Shown one piece after another: positions 9,601 through 24,262 of a DNA stretch of 41,474 nucleotides. Under the pieces are notes generated by a model that worked only from the letters and a program-made list of their open reading frames with translations, searched no databases and had not been told where the DNA came from. Origin of the DNA: Chrysochromulina parva (lineage: Eukaryota > Haptophyta > Prymnesiales > Chrysochromulinaceae); NCBI GenBank assembly GCA_002887195.1, contig PJAB01000113.1, positions 1-41,474 of the forward strand, in the 5' to 3' direction. A program made the position numbers and the translations under genes. Positions within the stretch are counted from its first letter, which is position 1, and every line of letters begins with the position of its first letter.

Positions 9601-12600
9601 TGCTCGATAGTGACTCCTCTACGGCGAAGGAGAACTCGGTCCGCGCCTCGGATGGCCTCTGATGAGCACAGACGGTCTCGGATATGGCCTCTGATTGCAC
9701 GGCCAAGGAGACCTCGCCCACCGTGGGCGGTCGCCCAGCATGCACATGCTCAGCACGACGCCCCACTTCCCCCTTCCCCACAGGTGCGCGCCCTCTCGCA
9801 ACTCGCCCATCGCTCGTGGGCGAACCAGGCGGCGATCGCCAAAGAGGGCGGCATCCCGAAGCTGGTCAACGTGCTCTCGTCAGCGGTGTCGAACATCAAG
9901 GACGTGGCGGCGGCGGAGCTTTGCTCTCTCGCGGCGGCGGCTGTGAATGAGATGTGCAAGGGCAATGCGCCCAACCAGGCCGCGTTCTCATCGAATGAGG
10001 CAAACGCCATCACGCCGATCGTACAGATGCTCGGCAACCCCGACCCGCAGATGCAGGCGAGTGCGAGCGGCGCCCTCTCAGAGTGCATGCTGAGCGCATC
10101 TCTGAGTGCATGCTGATTGCCTCCCTCATCAGGCGAATGCGAGCGGCGCCCTCTCAGCCCTCGCGCGCGGCAGCCCAGACAACCAAGCGGCCATCGCACG
10201 CACAGGCGCCATCGCGCCTCTGTGTACGCTCGTACGCGACGGCTCGCCCGAGACGAAAGAACAGGCGGCCTCCGCCCTCTGGTCGCTCTCGAACGAGAAC
10301 GCGCCGAATAAGGCCACGATCGCCAAGCTGGGCGGCATCGAGCCACTCGTGGGCTTGATTGTGAGCGGCGCGTCCGAAAAGTCCGCAGCCAACGCGGCCG
10401 GTGCGCTCGCGTCGCTCGCGGCGAAGCACACCGAGAACCGCTCGTCGGTGGCGAAGCGGCTTGTGGCGCTGCTCAACGGTAAGGTGGCCGAGCGGGCGGT
10501 GCGCGTCATGTCAGCGGTCTCGACTCTCTGTGCGGACAACCAGGCGAACCAGCTCGCGATTGCCAAATTTGGAGGCATCCCGCCTGTGATCGGCTGGCTC
10601 TCCTCACCTGACCCAGGGGCGCAGAAGGCGGCGGCGTTCGCGCTGCTTCATCTGGCCAAGGAGAATACGACGACGCAGGTGCTCACTGCCAATATGAATG
10701 CCTCTCATTGCCTCTAATAGCGCCTCTAATTGCCTCCTCGACGCAGGTGCTCATTGCCAATATGAATGGCATCCCGCCGCTCGTGCAGCTCGTCTCTTAC
10801 GGCTCCATCGAGGCTCAGGAGTCGGCCGCGCGCGCGCTCTGGCACCTCGCATCATCCAATGAGGCGAAGGAAGCGATTGCGGAGAGTGGCGGCATAGGGC
10901 CGCTCGTGGGCATGCTCTCCGTCGAGGACGAGCGCTCCCAAGAGATTGCGACGGTGACCATCTCGCGCCTCGAGGATTCCCCGTCTGACGAGGCGCGATT
11001 CCCCGTCTGACGAGGCGCGATTCCCCGTCTGATGAGGCGCGATTCCCCGTCTGACGAGGCGCGATTCCCCGTCTGATGAGGCGCGATTCCCCGTCTGATG
11101 AGTATCCTCCTCTTCCCCATCTACAGGTGACCATCTCGCGCCTCGCGCGTGGCAACCTGAAAGTGAGCATGACCATCGCGGAGAGCGGCGGCATCGTGCC
11201 GCTCGTGCGTCTCATTTGCTCGGGAGATCGCTCCGGAGATCGTCACATGAGCTCGGGGCAGACGGTGCTCCAGGCGACGGCCGCCCTGCATGCAAGTGCT
11301 CACCACGGCGCCATTTCCCCACAGACGGTGCTCCAGGCGACGGCCGCCCTGGCCGAGGTGAGCCTCGTACCTGCCAATCGCGAGCTGATCGCACGCGCGG
11401 GCGCCATCCCCGCCCTCGTCTCGCTCCTCGCGAGCGCCGTCGCGGGCACTCCGGAGACTGCCGCTCGAGCGCTCGGGCACCTCGCCCGAGACGGCGCGCT
11501 CAAGCTGCCGCCGAGCGACGACGCGGCCGCAGCAGCTGTGAACGTTCACACATCCTACCCCGACACCGGCGGCCTTCCCCGGCAGCCATCTCGCGAGATC
11601 GGACGCGAGATCGGACGCGAGATCGGACGCGATCTCCCGACCGATCTCCCGCCGCCGCCGACGGGTGAGAGCGCCCTTGCGCCCGACGACGGCGCTCGAG
11701 ACGGCGCGCTCTTCGACGGCGCGGCGCGTCGCCGCCTGATCCGTACGTGCGGCGGCGTCAGGCACCTCGTCCAACTGCTCGACCCGGTGAGCGCGATCGA
11801 GCTTCAGAATGAGGGACGAGAGGCCAAGAGCAGCAAGCACTTGTGGATGGGCGTCAAAGCTGTGGCTACGGTGTCGAGCGCTGTGCCGAGCGCGGTGCCG
11901 AGCACGGTGTCGAGCGCTGTGCCGAGCGCAGTGTCGAGCGCTGTGTCGAGCGCGATGTCGAGCGCTGTGCCGAGCGCGGTGTCGAGCGCCGTGCCGAGCA
12001 TGAGTACGGAAGGCTCCGCGGACCCCGAGCTGGTTGTGGGAGTGCAGGAGGCGGCTGCGGCGGCGCTGGCGGACCTCGCATACGGTGATGAGGAGATCCA
12101 GGCGGCCATCATTCAGGCGGGGGGCGTGGTGCCGTTGCTCGCGATAGTCCGTGGCGTTTCGTCAGCTTTGTCGGTTGCGTCGGGAATGAGCAGCGCGATC
12201 TCGGCGGGCGCCCAGGAGCACGCCGCACGTGCTATCTGGAACTTGGCCGCCTCGCCTGACAATCAAGACGTCATCGTCGAGAACGGCGCCATCCCTGAGC
12301 TCGTGACCCTAGTACGCGAAGGCTCGCCCAGAGCGCAGGAGGTCGGGGCGGCGGTGCTCTCCGAGCTCGCGCACGGAGCGGTGCTGCTGCACCAGAGGCT
12401 ACAGCTGCAGCAGAGGGCGCAGCTGCAGCACCAGACAGAGGAGCAGCTGCAGCGGAAGGTGGATGCGGGAGGCGACGGCGGCGTGGCAACGGCTGAGGAG
12501 GACGACGATGTGGAGCCGTATGCAAGCGCTCACCACGGCGCCATGACCCCACAGGACGACGGCGTGGAGCCGTTTGACAACTCGAGGCTGACCGAGATCG

Positions 12601-15600
12601 CGTCCGCGGGCGGGATCGCTCCGCTAGTGGCGCTGCTGGGGAATGGGAGCGTCGGGGGCAAGGAGCACGCCGCCTCGGCCTTGTTTTATTTGGCGGCACA
12701 CCCGGCGAATCGCCTCTCTATGGCCAAGGCGGGCGGCATCGCGCCGTTGGTGGCGCTGCTCGATGAGGGTACTCAGGTGGACGATGCTGATTGCTACTGA
12801 TTGCCACCGAGTGCCACCGAGTGCCACCGAGTGCCACTGATTGCCACAGAGTGCCACTGATTGCCACTGATTGCCACAGAGTGCTACTGATTGCCACAGA
12901 GTGCCACTGATTGCCACAGAGTGCCACTGATCGCCACTGATCGCCACTGATTGCCTCTGATCGCCACTCATCACCACTGATCGCCACTGATCGCCACTCA
13001 GGCGGCTCATGAGCACGCGTCGAATACGCTCGCTCGGCTCGCGATCCATTCGACCGAGAACCAGACGGGTATCTCGAAGAAGCTCGTCGAGCTGCTCCGA
13101 GTGCCTCGGTCCATGACGCAGCAGCGTGCTGCGCGCGCCCTGCGATCGCTCGCTGTGAACAACCCGTCGAGCTCCACGATCATCGTGAACGCAGGCGCCA
13201 TCTCGCCGCTCGTCACACTCCTTGCCACAGGTGCGACGGGGGCGAGGGAGGAGGCCAAGGTCGCACTGCACACGCTCGCCCTCAACGCGCCTTCGAATCA
13301 GCTTGCGATTGCGACTGGGTTGGTGGCACTCCTGTGCACGGGGGCGGCAGAGGCTCAGGAGCATGTGACACGCCTGTTGCTCACCCTCGCCACCGATGCA
13401 ACCAACCGCGTCGCGATCGCCAAGGCGGGCGCCATCGGCCGTCTGGTCATGCAGCTCAAGCAGGGCAAGGAGGCGGGCGGCTCCTTGGCTTGCCAGACGA
13501 GCCTCAAGTCGCAAGAGCTCGCCGCGGCCGTGCTCGCCCAGCTGTCGGCCGACTCGGAGGCCAACGTGGGTGCGATCGCCGCGTGCGCGAGCACCAAGGC
13601 GCTCATCGCGCTGCTCGGCTCGGCCTCCGAGTCGGCGCAGGCGCACGCGGCCGCGGTGCTTGCGGACTTGACGCGCGGGTCGAGGGAGATGCAGGGAGAT
13701 CAAGGGAGATCGGATGAAATCGAGGCGAGGTCGAGGGAGATGCAGGAGGACGTGGCACGCGAGGGCGGCATCGAGCTGCTCGTTGGGCTCCTGTCGGGCG
13801 AGCACGCGTGCACCGAGGCCGCCAACGCCATTTGGTCGATCGCGGCTGGCGACGAGGACATGAAACACATGGTCGCCCGGACGGGCGCAATCCCGCCGCT
13901 CGTAGCGCTGCTGGGCCGGCCAGGAGTCGTGCGCCTTCGTGCAGCAGGTGCGCTCGGTACGCTCGCGTGCGGCTTAGCCGTCCACCAGAGCGCAATCGCA
14001 GCTGCGGGCGGCCTCGCGCCGCTCGTGTCTCTCCTCGGCGATGGTGGCAAGCTCAGTGCGTCGCCCGCGGAGAGCGAGGCGCACGCTGCGAGAGCGCTCG
14101 CGAGCCTCGCTGACGGTCACGTGAGCAACGCGATCGCGATCGCCGAGGCGGGCGGCATCGTACCTCTCGTGCAGGTGGCGGATTCTGATTGCCACCGATT
14201 GCCACCGATTGCCACTCACTGCCACTGATGGCCTCTCAATTGCCACGGATTGCCACTCGATGGCCACTCATTGCCACTCATTGCCACGCATTGCCACGCA
14301 TTGCCACGCATTGCCACTCATTGCCACTCATTGCCACTCATTGCCATCGTACCTCTCGTGCAGCTGCTCCACGACGCCACGCCCGCCGCCGCCGCTTCTG
14401 CCGTCGCCGCCGCCCCCGAGGCGCACACGTACATGTGGCGGGTGGCGCCCGGGACGGCGCCATTGGAGTGGGCGCGCGAGGAGGCGGCAAGAGCGCTGCA
14501 TGCGCTCGCGTGTGGCTGCCCCCCCAACCAGTCCGCCATCGCGGAGGCGGGCGGCATCGCGCCACTCGTGCGGCTGCTCTCCTCGGGGACCGAGAGTGCT
14601 CAGGTGTTCAGCGCCAAAGCCCTTGCTTCTCTCGCGGTGGAGCACGAGGCGAATGAAGCGACCATCTGCGCGCAGATGGTCCAACTCCTTGGCTTGCCGG
14701 ACAAGCAGGCGGCGGCACGCGCGGCGCAAGCGATTGCACGGCTCGCTCACAAGGGGCTGCCCGCCTCCCAGGCCGCCTTTGCGCGCGCAGGCGCCATCAG
14801 CTTGCTCGTCACGCTTCTCAAGAGCGCGGGCCACTCGCTCGGCGCCTCCAAGGAGAGCGCCGCCTCGAGCGCCTACCTGCAACGGGAGAGCGCCGCGGCG
14901 CTCGGGGCGCTCGCCGAGGGGCACCCGGCGAACCAGGCCGCCGTTGCGGCCGAGGGGGGCATCGTTCCACTCGTGGCGATCCTGAAAGAATACCATCAGC
15001 CTGAGGTGTATGGTGAGGTGGCGCGAGCGTTGTGGAGGGTAGGTGGTCATCCACCGAACCAGCTCGCCATCGCCCACGCCGGCGGCATCACACCGCTCGT
15101 GCACCTGCTCGCGCAGTCTGTGAGCGTCGAGGCGAGACGAGAGGCGGCGGGTGCCCTCGGGGTGCTCGCCCAGCAGCCAGAGAACCGAACAGCCATCGCG
15201 CGCGCCAATGGCATGCCGGCCCTCGTGGCTCTGTTTGAGCTCGACTCGATCTCCGCCGCCGAGCAGGCCGCTTCGGCGCTCACGACCCTCGCGACCGATG
15301 ACGTAGCCAATCAGCGCGCGATTGCGACGGAGCTGGTGGCCACCCTCAACAACTCCCCGAGCGTGGCCGCTCAGGAGCAGGTGACGAAACTCCTAGGCGC
15401 TCTCGCCACCAATCCCGACAATCGCGGCGCCATCGCCGACGCCGGTGCCATCCCGCCTCTGGTGCGACAGCTTGCAGCTGGCTCGTCGGCCGCGCAGCAG
15501 TCGGCCGCGGCCGCCCTCTTCCAGATTGCGCGCCACTCAGCCCGGACGCCCGTGGCCATCGTCAAAGAGCTCGTCTCACTGCTGGGCTCGCATACCGTAG

Positions 15601-15987
15601 CCGTCCGCCAGCGTGCGGCCGCGGCGCTCAGGGAGGTCGTGCTCGCCTCAGCATTCGCGGGCTCGGGGCTCGCCATGTCGGGCGGCATGGCGAGCGTCGT
15701 GCCGGGCGGCATGGCGAGCGTCGTGATGGCCGATGGCGCCGAGCCGCTCGTCGCGTTCCTCCGCGACGGATACGTCGAGGCGCAAGAGTATGCGCTCTGG
15801 TCGCTCTCCCTCTCGACCGAGCCGAAGCACAAGATCGCCATCCTCGAGGCGGGGGTGATCGAGCCGCTCATCGCGGCGCTCAATGGGAAGCTCTCCGTCG
15901 ACGCGCAGGAGCACGCGGCGTGCGTGCTCTCCTTGCTCACTAGCTCGGCGCCGACGGCGACCGATCTGGTCCTCGAGGATCAAACCG

Positions 15988-16030
<43 letters not shown>

Positions 16031-18745
16031 TGCCGCCGCCGCCGCTGCCGCCGCCGCGGGGGTGCAAGGCGAGCTGAACCACGCGAGCGGTGCGACTCTC
16101 GTCGTCCGTGCGGGTGGCATCGGGCCGCTCGTGGCGCTGCTGCGCTCTGCACGTGGGACGACCAGGCGGCATGCGGCGACTGCGATCGCACATATCTCGA
16201 CCGGCGCGCGGGCGGAGGGCGGCATTCACGCACTGCTGTGCAATGCGGGTACGGTTGGCGCGCTGATTGAGATGTTGCATGCGACGGACGGCACCCTCGC
16301 CCAGGGCGCGAGCCACGCTTCGAGTGGCGACAAGGTGACAAGCCACGCTTCGAGTGGCGACAAGGTGACGCTGGTGGCCGAGGGCGCCGAGGTGGCTGCG
16401 ATGGCCCTGTGCGATCTCGCTCGATCTCGCGAGATGCAGACGACGATCAGCGAGGAGGGCGCCATCGGCCACCTCGTCGCCATGCTGGCGAGTGTGGAGG
16501 CCGGCGGCCGGCCGGCGGAGAGTGCGCGCTCATGGGCAGCAGCCGCACTCGGTGCGCTGGCCCAGGGCCACTCGCTCAACCAGACCCTGGTGGCTGTCGA
16601 GGGCGGCCTCGCGCCGCTTGTCGCTCTGCTCAGGCCGTCGATGCCACCGGCGTGCACGCAGCATGCGACGCGAGCGCTCACTGCCCTTGCTGCCGATCTT
16701 GAGAACCAGCTCGCCATTGGCGCCGTCTCGGGCGCGTTCGAGCACCTCGTGGGCATGCTCTCGGCGAGCAGTGCAGCGCTACAGGCTGATGGTGTGACCG
16801 CCCTGGCCGCGCTCTGCCGCGACTGCACGCCCAACCAGCGCGCTTGCCTCGAGACGGGCGCCATTGCGCCGCTTGTGCGCCTGCTCGGTGCACCCGTCGA
16901 GACATGCCGCAAGCACGCGAGCGCCGTGCTGGGCATGCTCTGCGAAGGCGCACATGCAAGCCACCGAAAGGCGCTGCTGAGCGCCGTCGTGGGCGCCACC
17001 GGCCGGGTCCCTTACGGAGTGCATGCGCCGCTCGCCGCGATCCAGACCCTCGCGAGCATTGCCGCGCGCTCCGACGCTGAGCTCGAGGCGCTCGCTCAAT
17101 TGGACGAAACTCTACCGGCCCTCATTGGGCTGTTGGGCCACGTTCACATTCACACCCGCGAGGCCGAGGAGGCCGCCCAGCTGCTCGCGGTACTCTCGCG
17201 CCGTCCCGAGCGTCGAGATGCGTGCGTGCTGGCGGGTGCGGTGGCGCCGCTCGCGCACATGCTCGGCTCGGCGCTCGGCTCGGCGCGCGCCGCAGCCGTT
17301 GGCTCGCTCGCCTCGCTCGCCAGCTCCCTACGCGTCTGCGCCGCCCTCGAAGCTCACCACGGCGCGCTCTCGCACCTCGTCAACGTCTTGGGTGAGGCAG
17401 CCGAACCTGCGGACGATCCGTGGGCGGTGGCGCAGGCACTACAGGTGCGCACGCAGGCTGCGCGGCTGCTGGGCCTCCTGCATGCATGTGCTCACCACGG
17501 CGCCCTCTCTCCCCACAGGTGCGCACGCAGGCTGCGCGGCTGCTGGGCTTCCTGATCGGATCGGCCGGTGCGCCGGCGACTCTCCTCAAGGCAGGTGGCC
17601 TCGCGCCCCTGCTGCGCATGCTCGAATGGATCCCGCCCGCCGCCGCGCCCGCGACGGCGCCATTGGCCGATGCCACGGGCGGCAAGGAGGCAGTGGCTGC
17701 CTCGCCACCCGTGCTGCCGCCGGCGCCGCCGGCGCCCGTCGAGGCGGCGCAGCAGGCGGCTGCGGCGGTGCTCGTCGAACTCGCTCGCCAACACGACGCC
17801 AGCGTCCTCGCCGCCCTGAGCCAGCCAAGCTGCCTGAGCCACGTGGTCGCCATGCTCGGCACAGAGCGCGCCGCGCTGTCGCACCGGCATGCGGCCGCTT
17901 TGCTGGGCGCTGTCGCGAGCACGGACGAACCACAACGTCGGGCGCTGCTGACGGCAGGGGCCGTGCCGCCGCTCGTCTCGCTCCTCTCTCGCTCTGCCGA
18001 TGCCCAAGGCGGCGCCCTCGCCGCGCTCAGCGCCATCGCACGGAGCACGGCGGCGCGGCGGGTGCTCCTGCAGTCCAACTGCGCCGATCCGCTCGTCACG
18101 CTCGCTTACGGGCGTGTCGGCTGGCTGCGCGCGCAGGCGGCCGAGCTGCTCGAGCTCCTTGGCCACGTAGACCCGCCAGCGAGGGCGCCCGGGACGGCGT
18201 GGCGTGCTTGGGAGGCCGCGGCGGCGGAGGCCGAGAGGAGCGCCGTGGTGGGCGAGAGGAGCGCCGTGGTGGGCGAGAGGAGCGCCGCGGTGGGCGAGAG
18301 GATTGACAGCGTACATGCTGCTGCAGACGCTGCGTGGGACCAAGGGGCGATCGCGCCGAGCGCGCCCGAAGCTGCCGCCGCGGTGTCGCTCAACCATCTC
18401 GCCATCTCGAACCGCATCACGCGCGTCGTGCTGGGCAGCGCGAGCAAGCTCAAGGGCGTCGCGATGGTGGCTGTGAACGTGAACGCGACACTTTTCGGTC
18501 CACTGCCGCCGCCGCAGCCGACGGGCGTCACTGACGCCCCTACGCCCTCCGCCAACGCCCACCACGACGCCCACCCGCCAAGCCCAGGCGGCTTAGGCGC
18601 CCCTATCAAGATGCCACCACACGTGCCAGTCGGCCTCGGCGTCAGGCCGACTGGCTCCCCGACCAGCAAGGCGGCGGGCTCGCCCCCCAGCTCGCCCCTG
18701 ATGAAGTTCCACACGGCAACTACGGCCGCCATTTTCCCAGCATGA
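6663..18745 (+). CDS. Giant armadillo-repeat protein (about 3,494 aa, 12 exons)
   Basis: Exons: 6663-7622, 7714-7786, 7925-8160, 8358-8885, 9108-9638, 9784-10056, 10133-10678, 10747-10953, 11127-12776, 13002-14174, 14364-17444, 17519-18745. They total 10,485 nt in one frame. Nearly the whole protein is armadillo repeats of about 40-43 residues with the signature AxAGGIxPLVxLLxxGsxxxxExAAxALxxLA, so several tens of copies form a long superhelix. Low-complexity insertions interrupt it: GREIG repeats, a Ser-Ser-Ala-Val-Pro tract, a Gln-rich stretch, polyalanine and an ERSAVVG repeat. The last about 130 residues are Pro/Ser-rich. ARM solenoids are protein-binding scaffolds; the repeats resemble yeast Vac8 and plant ARM proteins. 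No catalytic domain, signal peptide or membrane span is seen. The start at 6663 is the first ATG of the open frame. The partner and location are unknown. Two further in-frame duplications (11259-11351, 12501-12576) may also be spliced out. Confidence 0.85.
7623..7713 (+). other. ARM gene intron 1 (GT-AG, 91 nt, phase 0)
   Basis: Donor gtgagt, acceptor gtggtgcag. The interior is four imperfect copies of ctgattg(c/a). It contains in-frame stops, so splicing is needed. The junction reads AEVQ|AMSALA. Confidence 0.85.
7787..7924 (+). other. ARM gene intron 2 (GT-AG, 138 nt, phase 1)
   Basis: The only intron of this gene that is not phase 0. The junction restores YDLGGIPPL. The interior is a roughly 62-bp imperfect duplication rich in (a)cccg(t/a)acccgtaccctaac. 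The 14-mer acctgctgtctgac occurs at 7844-7857 and again at 7906-7919. Confidence 0.8.
8161..8357 (+). other. ARM gene intron 3 (GT-AG, 197 nt, phase 0), tgatggcctc satellite
   Basis: Starts gtgatctgatg and ends gctcggccag; the junction is VENQ|MVIVAP. Most of it (about 8166-8330) is a degenerate tandem array of tgatggcctc(tc). Confidence 0.8.
8886..9107 (+). other. ARM gene intron 4 (GT-AG, 222 nt, phase 0) with an internal copy of the spliced junction
   Basis: Donor gtgagt, acceptor cgttcatcag; junction AVSQL|VALLSDG. Bases 8998-9044 resemble the end of the upstream exon (8859-8885) fused directly to the start of the downstream exon (9108-9127), without the intron. The rest has gattgatcgg(g)ga-type repeats and tgattgcc/tggcctc words. 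The length is a multiple of three, so splicing is inferred from the ARM register. Confidence 0.75.
9639..9783 (+). other. ARM gene intron 5 (GT-AG, 145 nt, phase 0)
   Basis: Begins gtccgcgcctcg, a degraded match of the next exon start gtgcgcgccctctcg. Bases 9699-9716 repeat the end of the upstream exon (9621-9638) with 2 mismatches in 18. It ends in a divergent copy of the CTCACCACGGCGCC element (9739-9783) that supplies the acceptor ccccacag. Confidence 0.75.
10057..10132 (+). other. ARM gene intron 6 (GC-AG, 76 nt, phase 0)
   Basis: The 28-bp segment 10054-10081 is repeated at 10130-10157 with one mismatch. The second copy is the true exon start (Q|ANASGAL). Removal must start with GC (gcgagt) and end catcag. 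The frame requires removal of 76 nt. Confidence 0.75.
10679..10746 (+). other. ARM gene intron 7 (GT-AG, 68 nt, phase 0) made by a junction duplication
   Basis: The 30-bp segment 10671-10700, which spans CAG|GTG, is repeated at 10739-10768 with one mismatch. The intron is therefore the right half of the first copy, a filler of attgcctct-like words, and the left half of the second copy. The 68 nt must be removed to keep frame. Confidence 0.85.
10954..11126 (+). other. ARM gene intron 8 (GT-AG, 173 nt, phase 0) with a 22-bp tandem array
   Basis: The first 19 nt (10954-10972) are identical to the start of the next exon (11127-11145). The body (about 10975-11102) is nearly six copies of a 22-bp unit containing gattccccgtctgaygagg. 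It ends ccccatctacag. Confidence 0.85.
11259..11351 (+). repeat. Exact 30-bp direct repeat flanking the CTCACCACGGCGCC element, in frame
   Basis: Bases 11259-11288 and 11322-11351 are identical (QTVLQATAAL twice). Between them lies element copy 11289-11324 ending ccccacag. The 63-nt period keeps the reading frame. A 60-nt GT-AG intron (11265-11324) or another noncanonical excision is possible but not required. Confidence 0.8.
11590..11632 (+). repeat. 12-bp coding minisatellite (GREI repeat)
   Basis: Units of cgcgagatcgga encode Gly-Arg-Glu-Ile repeats inside the ARM protein, between two ARM blocks. Confidence 0.75.
11878..12000 (+). repeat. Coding minisatellite (Ser-Ala-Val-Pro/Ser tract)
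   Basis: A 12-bp unit related to agcgctgtgccg is repeated about ten times and encodes about 40 residues of SAVPSAVS type within the ARM protein. The unit length is a multiple of three. Confidence 0.9.
12501..12576 (+). repeat. 22-bp direct repeat flanking the CTCACCACGGCGCC element, in frame
   Basis: Bases 12501-12522 and 12555-12576 match with 3 differences, separated by an element copy (12519-12554) ending ccccacag. The period is 54 nt, in frame. A 45-nt excision 12510-12554 (gtggag...cacag) is conceivable, but this would be a very short intron. Confidence 0.7.
12777..13001 (+). other. ARM gene intron 9 (GT-AG, 225 nt, phase 0), tgattgccac satellite
   Basis: Starts gtggacgatg and ends gccactcag; junction DEGTQ|AAHEHASNTLA. 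The body is a nearly continuous array of 9-12 bp units of type ctgattgcca(c) and agtgccac. Confidence 0.85.
14175..14363 (+). other. ARM gene intron 10 (GT-AG, 189 nt, phase 0), satellite plus copied exon end
   Basis: The last 19 bases of the upstream exon (14156-14174, catcgtacctctcgtgcag) are repeated exactly as the last 19 bases of the intron (14345-14363), so the 3' splice site is a copy of exon sequence. The body is a ttgccactca/ttgccacgca satellite. Confidence 0.85.
15985..16058 (+). repeat. GCC-rich triplet tract (polyalanine)
   Basis: Continuous gcc/gct codons encode an alanine run of more than 20 residues within the ARM protein. Confidence 0.9.
16310..16369 (+). repeat. 30-bp coding tandem duplication (SHASSGDKVT twice)
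   Basis: Two adjacent near-identical 30-bp units encode SHASSGDKVT twice in an ARM linker; the frame is preserved. Confidence 0.85.
17445..17518 (+). other. ARM gene intron 11 (GT-AG, 74 nt, phase 0): exon copy plus CTCACCACGGCGCC element
   Basis: The 40-bp segment 17441-17480 is repeated at 17515-17554 with one mismatch. The intron is 36 nt copied from the downstream exon start followed by the 38-nt element (17481-17518) ending ccccacag. Removal of 74 nt is required for frame, which makes this the clearest spliced copy of the element. Confidence 0.9.
18234..18301 (+). repeat. 21-bp coding tandem repeat (ERSAVVG)
   Basis: Three units of gagaggagcgccgtggtggg-type sequence encode ERSAVVG, ERSAVVG and ERSAAVG near the end of the ARM protein. 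Confidence 0.9.
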
Positions 18746-21722: not shown

Positions 21723-24262
21723 TCAGTCGCCTTGGAGGAACCCGTACAGCGAGGAGAGCGAGTGAGCAGCTGCTTCATCATCATGAGGATCATGCCGTGG
21801 CGCCGTGGTGGGCGGCGGCGCCCGCGCGGGCAGGCCGGCCGACGGGGCCGCTGTGGCGCGCCCTACATCGTCACACACCATCAGCATGCCGCCACTTGAG
21901 GTTACAAAGCCGCCGCTGCCGCCGCCGCCGCCAGCGGCAACCGCACTGCTGTAGCCACCTCGTCCGCCACCACTACCACCGCCGCCGCCACTTCCACCGG
22001 CGCCGGCGCCGTCGCCGCCGACGACGACGCCGCCGACGCCGACGGTCCTCATGATGCGGGCGACCGAGGAGGCGACCGAGGAGGACGAAGGCGGAGCGTA
22101 GGCGGGGGCTTCCGTCGTCGGCGGAGCGGCCACATACCCGTACCCGCCGTTGCTGGCGCCTCCAAACGAGCTCAACAAGTGCGCGGCGTCTCCGTTGCCA
22201 TCGGCGTCGGCGGCTGCGGAGGTCGCACCTCCGGTCTGGGCAAAGCCACCGTACCCGCCGCTTGCATACGTGGCCGAGTAGCTGCCACCGTACCCGCTCG
22301 CGTACCCGCTCGCGTACCCGCTCGCCACGGCGCTCGCGTACGCGCCTGGGAAGGGCTGCGTGAGCGCCGTGGTGAGCGCCGCCGCCGCCGCGCACTCGGG
22401 CCCAAGGGCGCTCACCACGGCGCCCCCGTCGGCCCCATCCCCCTTTGGCCGAGACTTGGAGCCCTTTGGCCGCCCCGGCTTGCGCTTGGGCAGCGGCTGG
22501 CCGTCGGGCCCGATGAGCGCCTTCGGCTTGAGGGGCGCGTTCGGGTCCTTGGGCTTGTTCTTACTGCCTTTCGGCCGGCCGCGCTTTCGCCGCTCCCGCT
22601 CATCGGGCTCGTACTCGTAGCCGTTCGCATGCCCGTACGGATGCCCTTCGGCGGCGGCGGCGGCGGCGGCGGCCGCCCTGGCCGCGGCCGCATTCTCGTC
22701 GATGGTGGTTACGAGGAGCACCGTATCGCCCTCAGGCTCGTCAGCGTCCACATGCTGTGCATACAGGTGTGACGAATCTCGCGTCTTGCCGAGCGGCACT
22801 AGGGAGAGGGAAGCCGCAGCCTCCGCGGCCGCCGCGTCGTGCGCGTAGTAGGTGGCGTGGACCGCACTGCTGCCCGAAAAGCTGCCGTCCGCGCCGAAGC
22901 CGGGGCTTGCATGCGCATGTCGCTCCTGCTTGCGCTGCTCCTTGGCATGATGGTATTGCTCCTTCATGGCGCTGAACTCAGCACTCGGTTGGTACCTGAT
23001 GAGGGAGGCACTCAGGCCCAATCAGAGGCAATCAGAGGCAATCAGGGAGCTCGGCTGGTACCTGATGAGGGAGGCACTCAGGCCCAATCAGAGGCAATCA
23101 GAGGCAATCAGGGAGCTCGGCTGGTACCTGATGAGGGAGGCACTCAAGCGATGATCAGAGGTCGTCAGAGGCCGTCGGAGGTCCTCAGAGGTCATCCGTC
23201 AGCAGTCATCCGTGGTCATTCGCGCTCATCAGCGCCCATTCGAGGATGGCAAACTGAGATGAGCTCATCAGATGGCAATCAGATGGCAATCAGATGGCAA
23301 TCAGCGCACTGCTCCATCTCGGCGTTGAAACGCTCCTTGTCGCGCACGGCGAGCTGCTCGAACGGCACCCGCTGCTCGGCGCCGAGGGCCTTCCACTGCG
23401 TCGCGAGCATGCGTGTGATATCGGGCACGCTCGCACCCGCATACTCGGTCATCACGGTCTGCCGATGCGCCTCCATGTAGTAAAAGTACGCCGAGTGCGG
23501 ATGCTTCGGGCGTTGCGGGTCTTTCTTGAGACGGCCGCACTTGGTGAAGCGCGACGGGTCGATGCCCGGCACGGCCTGCGGCTGTGGCATGCTCTGCCAG
23601 CGCTGCACCTCCTCCTCGAACCGCGCGCGGTCGTTGCGCTCGAGATACTCAAAGGGTTGCTTCGCCGTATCGGACATGGCGCGCCACTCCTCGCGGCACT
23701 GCGCGTTGAATAGGGAGATCTGGAACCCGTGACCCTCTCGCCGCATCTCCTCCTTGCGGTGCGCCGCGTAGAACATGGCCGCCGTGCGAGGCTTGGCCGG
23801 CTCGCCCGGAAGCTTGGGCTTGCGGCCTTGCCTCAGCTCCGTATCGTCAAAGAGTGAGTCGTCCGCGCCGTGGACGCCGGCGGACGCGGACGCGGTTCCG
23901 TACGCAGCTGCCGCCTCGGCATCATACATGGCCGCATTTGACGTGTACACAGCGGCCGCGGCGTCGTAGGCGGGCGCCCCCGACACTTCGTAGGCAGGCG
24001 GTGCCGAAGCTTCGTACGCCGCCACTGGCATGGTGCCGTAGGACGTCGTGCCAGGGTCTAAGACTCCCACGGCGTGCGCCGCGCCGCCATAGCGCGCACC
24101 CGGCTCCCTTGCGGCTTCCATGACGGGAGAGGGGTCACCCTTCAAGAACCGGCGTAGGAACGCGGGTGTGAACGTTAACACGACAGACGCGACAGCCGGT
24201 GCTACGGCACTGTGTTTGTTGAGAATAGATGAAAAGACGGTCTGGCCCCCAGTCAAACACAT
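21723..24262 (-). CDS. Double HMG-box and AT-hook DNA-binding protein
   Basis: Exons 24262-23310 and 22971-21723 join in frame (733 codons from 24262; 686 aa if the start is Met48 at 24121, which I favour because the longer N-terminus overlaps a conserved non-coding motif). HMG box 1 starts EPAKPRTAAMFYAAHRKEEM. HMG box 2 starts KKDPQRPKHPHSAYFYYMEA and ends just before the splice site. Exon 2 begins with a Lys/Glu/His-rich extension of the box. It then carries two AT-hook-like motifs, KRGRPKGSKNKPK and KPGRPKGSKSRPK, each with the GRP core. The C-terminal half is Gly/Ala/Ser/Tyr-rich and disordered. It should be nuclear, bending DNA and binding AT-rich minor grooves: an architectural chromatin factor. 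It is divergent from, and close to, the histone deacetylase gene. Confidence 0.85.
22972..23309 (-). other. Intron of the HMG-box gene (GT-AG, 338 nt) with 66-bp tandem repeat
   Basis: Sense donor GTGCGCTGATTGCC, acceptor GAGTTCAG. Splicing gives AEMEHAMKEQYHH. On the sense strand it starts with three TGATTGCCATC units, as in the ARM introns. It then has about 2.4 copies of a 66-bp unit whose ggtacc sites lie at 22991, 23057 and 23123, and whose interior contains TGATTGCCTC words. Confidence 0.75.

Follow-up and report, generated by a model that had tools for sequence, protein, structure and literature searches.

A dispersed 3′-splice module between long target duplications in haptophyte exons: a candidate introner family of unusual architecture

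How new spliceosomal introns originate is an old open question. The stretch of DNA analysed here (the window; 41,474 nt, 64% GC) raises it in a concrete form, as a single armadillo-repeat gene harbors four copies of a short repeat, all of them in plus-strand frames of the gene. The first-pass annotation had interpreted these copies as introner-like elements, transcribed in the sense orientation and provided with a built-in acceptor. Are they introns, and how were they inserted? Our analysis favors, with reasonable confidence, an introner family that is unusual in its architecture and whose copies were inserted through duplicative, patch-like repair; both the splicing and the insertion route are deduced from sequence comparison.

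The genome contains 58 matches to the light-harvesting family PF00504, and the host is therefore photosynthetic. For its PUS7/TruD gene (L047), the nearest named relatives among the matches listed are those of Prymnesium parvum (61% over 54% of the query), Isochrysis galbana and Emiliania huxleyi, which on this one gene makes the host a haptophyte. Chrysochromulina, to which we return below, is also a haptophyte.

Copies in the window and across the genome

The repeat is centered on a 25-nt core, GCATGCNNGTGCTCACCACGGCGCC, which we located on the plus strand at 9738–9762, 11288–11312, 12518–12542 and 17480–17504, within one or two bases of the positions first reported. All four copies are in the sense orientation, and all four cores are followed by the pyrimidine-rich end CCCCACAG, as had been claimed. 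Three of the copies have clear flanking duplications (29, 19 and 39 nt). In the copy at 17480–17504 the core is exact, the pyrimidine-rich tail (17505–17518) closes with CCCCACAG and a predicted acceptor, and the duplicates of 39 nt lie at 17441–17479 and 17515–17553, identical at 38 positions. The GT at 17445, within the first duplicate, would be the donor of a 74-nt GT-AG intron (17445–17518, plus strand), the removal of which gives an open frame of 1353 aa over 14355–18487. A protein search with the exons joined across 17445–17518 gave no match at 1e-20. The diverged copy on the plus strand at 9738–9783 likewise ends in CCCCACAG, with a putative acceptor placed by eye at 9783. Its duplication is degraded, in agreement with the first-pass annotation; by eye, there is only a short repeat, GTCCGCGCC near 9640 versus GTGCGCGCC after the acceptor.

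The two remaining copies are of a different kind. The core and tail at 11288–11324 lie between identical 29-nt duplicates (11259–11287 and 11322–11350), and those at 12518–12554 between 19-nt duplicates matching at 17 positions (12499–12517 and 12553–12571), all on the plus strand. Counted with one duplicate, they amount to insertions of 63 and 54 nt, respectively, both multiples of three, and both segments are open in the frame of the gene. The former has no GT in register and one GC-AG pair; the latter has neither a GT-AG nor a GC-AG pair in register. Moreover, the encoded peptides are present in predicted proteins of relatives. The claim that all four copies are introns is therefore not supported: in the window, only the copy at 17481 and, judged by eye, the degraded one at 9739 look like GT-AG introns.

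Two further plus-strand segments of the window carry long duplications. One (10057–10132) is a putative 76-nt GC-AG intron of a second family, ending in CTCCCTCATCAG, with a flanking duplication of 25 nt. In the other (10671–10768), a 30-nt duplication surrounds other filler, with GT and AG in register. Ten-base minisatellites (CTGATTGCCA and alike) fill apparent longer introns of the armadillo-repeat gene at 12787–12998 and 14188–14346 and, by eye, are related to the 5′ part of the element. Another exon sequence of this gene, at 17352–17366 and well inside the exon, matches the core with one mismatch (GCTCACCACGGCGCG), either by chance or as an old in-frame remnant.

The genome-wide search for further copies that the first-pass annotation had proposed returned 1,816 core matches at no more than three mismatches in the 45.07-Mb assembly (2199 contigs), compared with one match for a reversed control. 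An exact 17-mer of the core occurs 513 times (control 0), with CACAGG 3–20 nt downstream in 329 of these cases genome-wide (control 0), and the window itself holds 11 matches to the 17-mer at up to three mismatches where 0.53 are expected. The counts for the core and for the exact 17-mer, set against their controls, reject chance similarity among the copies. Coding paralogy was rejected as the source of the repeat, the host genes being of unrelated protein families, and so was a plain minisatellite, the copies being dispersed and their duplicates locus-specific. Rfam at gathering scores gave no match within the window, and the exact core had none in a collection of bacterial and archaeal genomes.

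The complete element is about 65–70 nt long and non-coding. It consists of a 5′ part (GTACGTTGATTGCCACTGATGACCTGCCTT), the core and a pyrimidine tail ending in CACAG. Its 5′ end, GTACGTTGATTGCC, occurs 67 times in the genome; the 5′ ends of individual copies are graded from 0 to the whole 30 nt, and at least 28 nt are reached in four of 109 copies. Flanks were analysed in 333,622 bases of partly overlapping sequence (the window, 30 loci of about 3 kb, 194 kb from 20 loci, and 20 stretches of 401 bases), in which the loci outside the window had been picked around exact matches and are biased to intact cores. This sample contains 121 distinct copies at no more than five mismatches (none in one block shuffle), 120 of them with enough flank for duplication analysis.

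Orientation, which the annotation had suggested comparing with transcription, is not random. Among the 120 copies, 56 are sense, eight antisense and one conflicting, with 55 uncallable; random positions gave 400:420, with 781 uncallable and four conflicting. The genome thus holds many similar intragenic copies in the transcribed orientation, one of the properties by which introners are recognized. Tandem arrays of duplicate plus core within one locus were also seen (L027, L008, L006, L004, L067 and L040), with spacings of about 58–70 nt where measured. An alternative acceptor end, CTAATTAG, follows the same core at three sites (two copies in L038, and L064). In one contig of a viral collection, an element copy with its acceptor and a GT lies next to phage-like open frames and occupies the terminal 60 bases (L071:4495–4554); this end of the contig is probably chimeric.

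Flanking duplications and intron anatomy

We scored duplication as the best ungapped repeat between the two flanks of a copy, with a cut at 12. This score is reached by 75 of the 120 copies and by 3.5% of 1,964 mismatched-locus pairs; 45 copies show no duplication above the cut. No second core lies just downstream in 63 of the 75, which constitute the non-tandem set. Their duplicates have a median identity of 0.97 and are identical in 24 cases, and therefore many of the insertions look young. Provided that the duplicates mark the insertion, removing one duplicate together with the element must return the old exon. In precisely this register, 37 of the 63 copies contain a GT...AG segment, compared with 0–10 in 24 shifted registers. 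Allowing GT or GC at the start raises the number to 45, against 2–27 in shifted registers; 26 of the 63 have no GT...AG in register.

Reading frames agree across the junction in 31 of the 37 cases, and in all 11 in which both sides are clear, frames being called with a codon model trained on the same genome. Retention would break the frame in 29 of the 37. Division of segment length by three leaves two in 20 cases, zero in 11 and one in six. The base before GT is G in 36 and is itself preceded by A (AG|GT) in 21. Exons were joined at ten junctions in nine loci, chosen by eye from the 37: a Pfam match spans the junction in seven and stops short of it in one, and two have no match. In comparison with solved structures, the joined exons of ABC-F (LSG|GE), PP5 and PUS7 are gapless over the junction; the GH127 piece had no match in the PDB search. 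For PUS7, 12 of the 120 homologues listed were aligned, and 11 of them run without a gap through YSVHE|VLLPLPG. In the twelfth (P0046, 99% identical), the reading continues across the first duplicate and ends within intron sequence, so that this allele, too, seems to have the intron. Precise removal thus restores host coding sequence, although not as a GT-AG intron in the window copies at 11288 and 12518. In an open scan, 235,867 bases yielded 104 duplications whose two copies lie 45–300 bases apart, and 47 of these are compatible with GT-AG on at least one strand; counted strand-wise, 54 are compatible versus 5–40 in shifted registers, the same trend in weaker form.

The 37 segments fall into two classes. 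Class A (34 of 37) starts at the donor with a host duplicate of 11–37 nt (median 22), which is the length of flanking duplication that the annotation had wanted measured. It is followed by 0–34 nt of filler, partly the 5′ part of the element cut at varying points, then by the core and by 10–19 nt of mostly pyrimidines ending in AG, after which comes the second duplicate. The end is CCCCACAG in 21 of the 34. The A of CTCAC is located 20–29 nt from the acceptor, a position that we take to fit a branch point. The built-in acceptor of the original claim was right, but the donor is in most introns not built in and is supplied by the duplicated target. Class A segments would be spliced out as introns. 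Their length is 77 ± 7 nt (n = 34), and the lengths of duplicate and filler are inversely correlated (rho −0.64, p 5e-5, n = 34), as expected if a narrow length range is selected. In class B (three of 37), GTACG... is provided by the element and the AG by the end of the second duplicate. For one of the three (L023), which has a tail and an AG of its own as well, usage is ambiguous. In the single U6 snRNA match (C501:6976–7168), 105 model positions extend over 193 bases. This implies an insertion of about 88 bases, a length similar to that of the putative introner introns.

A second 3′ end shows a similar pattern. Duplications starting at the acceptor accompany 31 of 87 CTCATCAG sites (donor GT in 10, GC in seven), some of the 31 being minisatellite self-matches, and 28 of 86 CCCCACAG sites. 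The corresponding numbers are four of 44 for [AGT]CCCACAG sites and 35 of 300 (29 with GT) for a sample of other [AG]CAG|GT sites, a set that includes real introns and is thus an unclean control. CTCCCTCATCAGGT occurs 955 times genome-wide (control 0). By eye, the body of the second family (CTGATTGCC and CTGATGACC units) is similar to the 5′ part of the first element, and the two families may share history. Members of the second family ending in CTCCCTCATCAG and flanked by similarly long duplications were also observed at 22984–23146 of the window (minus strand) and in L042, L048 and L050.

In-frame copies and alleles in relatives

Insertions of the kind found at 11288 and 12518 occur at other loci. 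One is a sense insertion of 60 nt (L014). Another is an in-frame insertion of 45 nt with duplication (L015), which is antisense by a regional codon score and belongs to the uncallable copies in the 120-copy orientation count. Non-tandem copies without a CAG tail (n = 6) have lengths that are multiples of three in four cases, and the two exceptions are both in the L050 array. Multiples of three account for six of the 14 copies that have the tail and lack GT, and for none of the ten tail-less copies in tandem arrays. Depending on the site, the element seems to give rise either to an intron or to an in-frame insertion. Duplications also accompany core-only and in-frame insertions and one that is apparently antisense (L015), which suggests that the insertion step does not depend on splicing.

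Both in-frame copies of the window could be compared with alleles in relatives. The protein query covered 11124–12785, and the subjects were predicted proteins of metagenomic relatives, with an unstated gene-calling procedure. Two of them (P0001 and P0002) have both insertions. In P0003 (98% identity over aligned columns, 94% by BLASTP), precisely the 21 residues of the 11288 insertion are missing, and the insertion at 12518 is retained. P0004–P0006 (88–89%) lack exactly the 18 residues of the 12518 insertion, amid other length differences, and have the one at 11288. To judge from these proteins, the insertion at 12518 looks like a gain in this lineage. At 11288, the state of P0003 may be a loss by recombination between the repeats just as well as a gain here, because the insertion is present in the sister lineage P0004–P0006 and absent in the nearer P0003. 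The empty alleles found are thus both those of in-frame copies; for GT-AG copies, neither the protein search across 17445–17518 nor the 12 aligned PUS7 homologues revealed an intron-less allele. In the duplicates at 11259–11350, both copies read QTVL here and both read QTML in P0004–P0006. This concerted difference suggests gene conversion (exchange) between the duplicates or independent insertion at one site.

Routes of insertion and known systems

We propose that the element is copied, usually in a 5′-truncated form, into exons of this haptophyte. A staggered break would be filled in, leaving a long target duplication of variable length (11–37 nt in class A), and would be patched with a templated copy of an existing element, where GGT/AGGT microhomology, judged by eye at the 5′ junction, would perhaps help precise joins. 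Selection would then keep events that are spliceable or in frame. In many surviving copies the target stretch starts with GT after G. The first duplicate would thereby give the 5′ splice site and the element the branch-point-like CTCAC, the pyrimidine tract and the AG, and splicing would remove duplicate and element exactly. In a minority, the donor would come from the element and the acceptor from the end of the second duplicate, or the insertion would stay in frame and be translated. Three observations lead us to prefer fill-in with a templated patch: the element is variable at both ends, duplications of the same kind flank tail-less and in-frame copies, and the pattern is common to two 3′ ends. 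More tentatively, intron birth might be a by-product of break repair in general, with staggered exon breaks filled and patched with 3′-splice modules of at least two families, without a transposase and usually without an element-borne donor. AG|GT would then act both as joining microhomology and as splice site, a double role that would render the process self-propagating.

A counter-point to patch repair is that the fixed CACAG end and the 5′ truncation also fit reverse transcription of intron RNA, which is a serious rival even if we consider it, on balance, doubtful. A nick in the target would be the site at which excised intron RNA, with its 3′ end exactly at CAG, is copied into DNA in the manner of target-primed reverse transcription, a process that leads to 5′ truncation and to long target duplications of variable length. 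The retroelement features are mostly present: a sharp, constant 3′ end with graded 5′ truncation, and variable duplications; the strong sense bias is also in its favor. However, priming from the 3′ end does not lead one to expect copies truncated at that end, and these occur as well, both in class B (three of 37, L023 being ambiguous), where the 5′ end is complete, and as tail-less, core-only copies. The apparently antisense in-frame insertion with duplication in L015 is a further difficulty.

Two other routes are less likely. Non-autonomous DNA transposons resembling MITEs and moved by a transposase are known among algal introners (PMC9860276, in the part available), and flanking duplications and high copy number are indeed present. 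Yet class A duplications vary between 11 and 37 nt (n = 34) instead of having a fixed length of 3–9 bp, inspection of the core and full consensus by eye revealed no terminal inverted repeats, and many copies are truncated; we regard this explanation as improbable and the involvement of a transposase as unlikely. Very improbable, in our view, is local tandem duplication of an AGGT-containing exon, with or without a neighboring 3′ intron end, in which case the shared core would be no more than a piece of a pre-existing intron. It would suit the AG|GT in 21 of 37 cases, the tandem arrays of duplicate and core, and the duplication of a 3′ intron end described from potato (PMC4974935, as excerpted). 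In class A, however, the exon is followed by duplicate, element and second duplicate, without an element farther upstream, and one and the same core recurs at many places on many contigs; therefore, the filler came from elsewhere. For 11288 and 12518, the alleles that lack the element and one duplicate together largely refute it. Duplicative, patch-like repair remains our preferred reading.

What stood of the original introner claim is the high-copy family with its sense bias, intron-like excision and long duplications, but not the intron status of all four window copies. The duplicated target would be a working half of the new intron, contributing the donor and part of the length, and the copied part is mainly a 3′-splice module. 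For two in-frame copies, closely related alleles that have or lack the insertion occur in nature, which makes the mechanism testable in one living alga.

Most introner families surveyed by Gozashti et al. 2022 (PMC9860276) fit DNA transposition, and duplications in the examples given in its available portion are of a few bases, including 4 bp in Symbiodinium and Chrysochromulina. The same portion describes introners that take one splice site from the target duplication, with 3–9 bp for earlier families. The search described there requires similarity starting within 10 intronic bases of both ends. Class A introns, in which the 5′ part is a locus-specific duplicate, lack such similarity and would therefore fail this search as described, which suggests that families of this type escape surveys in which copies have to be similar at both intron ends. 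Our literature search for introners with long target site duplications found none. In the haptophyte introner literature, judged by title and start of abstract, we did not find the element family; the supplement of PMC9860276, outside that scope, may list part of it.

The closest points of comparison come from the same survey, as excerpted. Introners of Chrysochromulina sp. (TARA MAG, family 5; PMC9860276) resemble those described here in forming many similar introns without inverted repeats, and in carrying one splice site and co-opting the other from the target. However, their duplications are 4 bp and the element carries the 5′ splice site, whereas here duplications are mostly 11–37 nt and the element carries the 3′ splice site. 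Symbiodinium microadriaticum introners have 4-bp duplications and terminal inverted repeats (PMC9860276), in contrast to long variable duplications and no such repeats seen here. Introner elements of Amoebophrya are likewise repeated introns with direct repeats at their borders, but, in the accessible text of PMC7789003, these are 3–5 nt long and are accompanied by inverted repeats of 8–20 nt and non-canonical splice sites.

The presence of long repeats is in itself not new: in 213 introns of many kinds, direct repeats of 4–30 bp (mean 11.4) were found at the borders or close to them and were read as traces of break repair on insertion (PMC11782384, in part). Those repeats are shorter on average and belong to single introns, whereas here a dispersed family has its donor from the repeat. 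In PMC8355091, small duplications result when breaks with protruding ends are filled in, as proposed here; the accessible part of that study concerns induced breaks and NHEJ, without templated intron filler. Finally, direct repeats from gap filling and a duplicated AGGT supplying splice sites, both paralleled in the model proposed here, are described in the excerpted text of PMC4974935, but as single events without dispersed repeated filler, whereas here one filler family recurs more than 1000 times.
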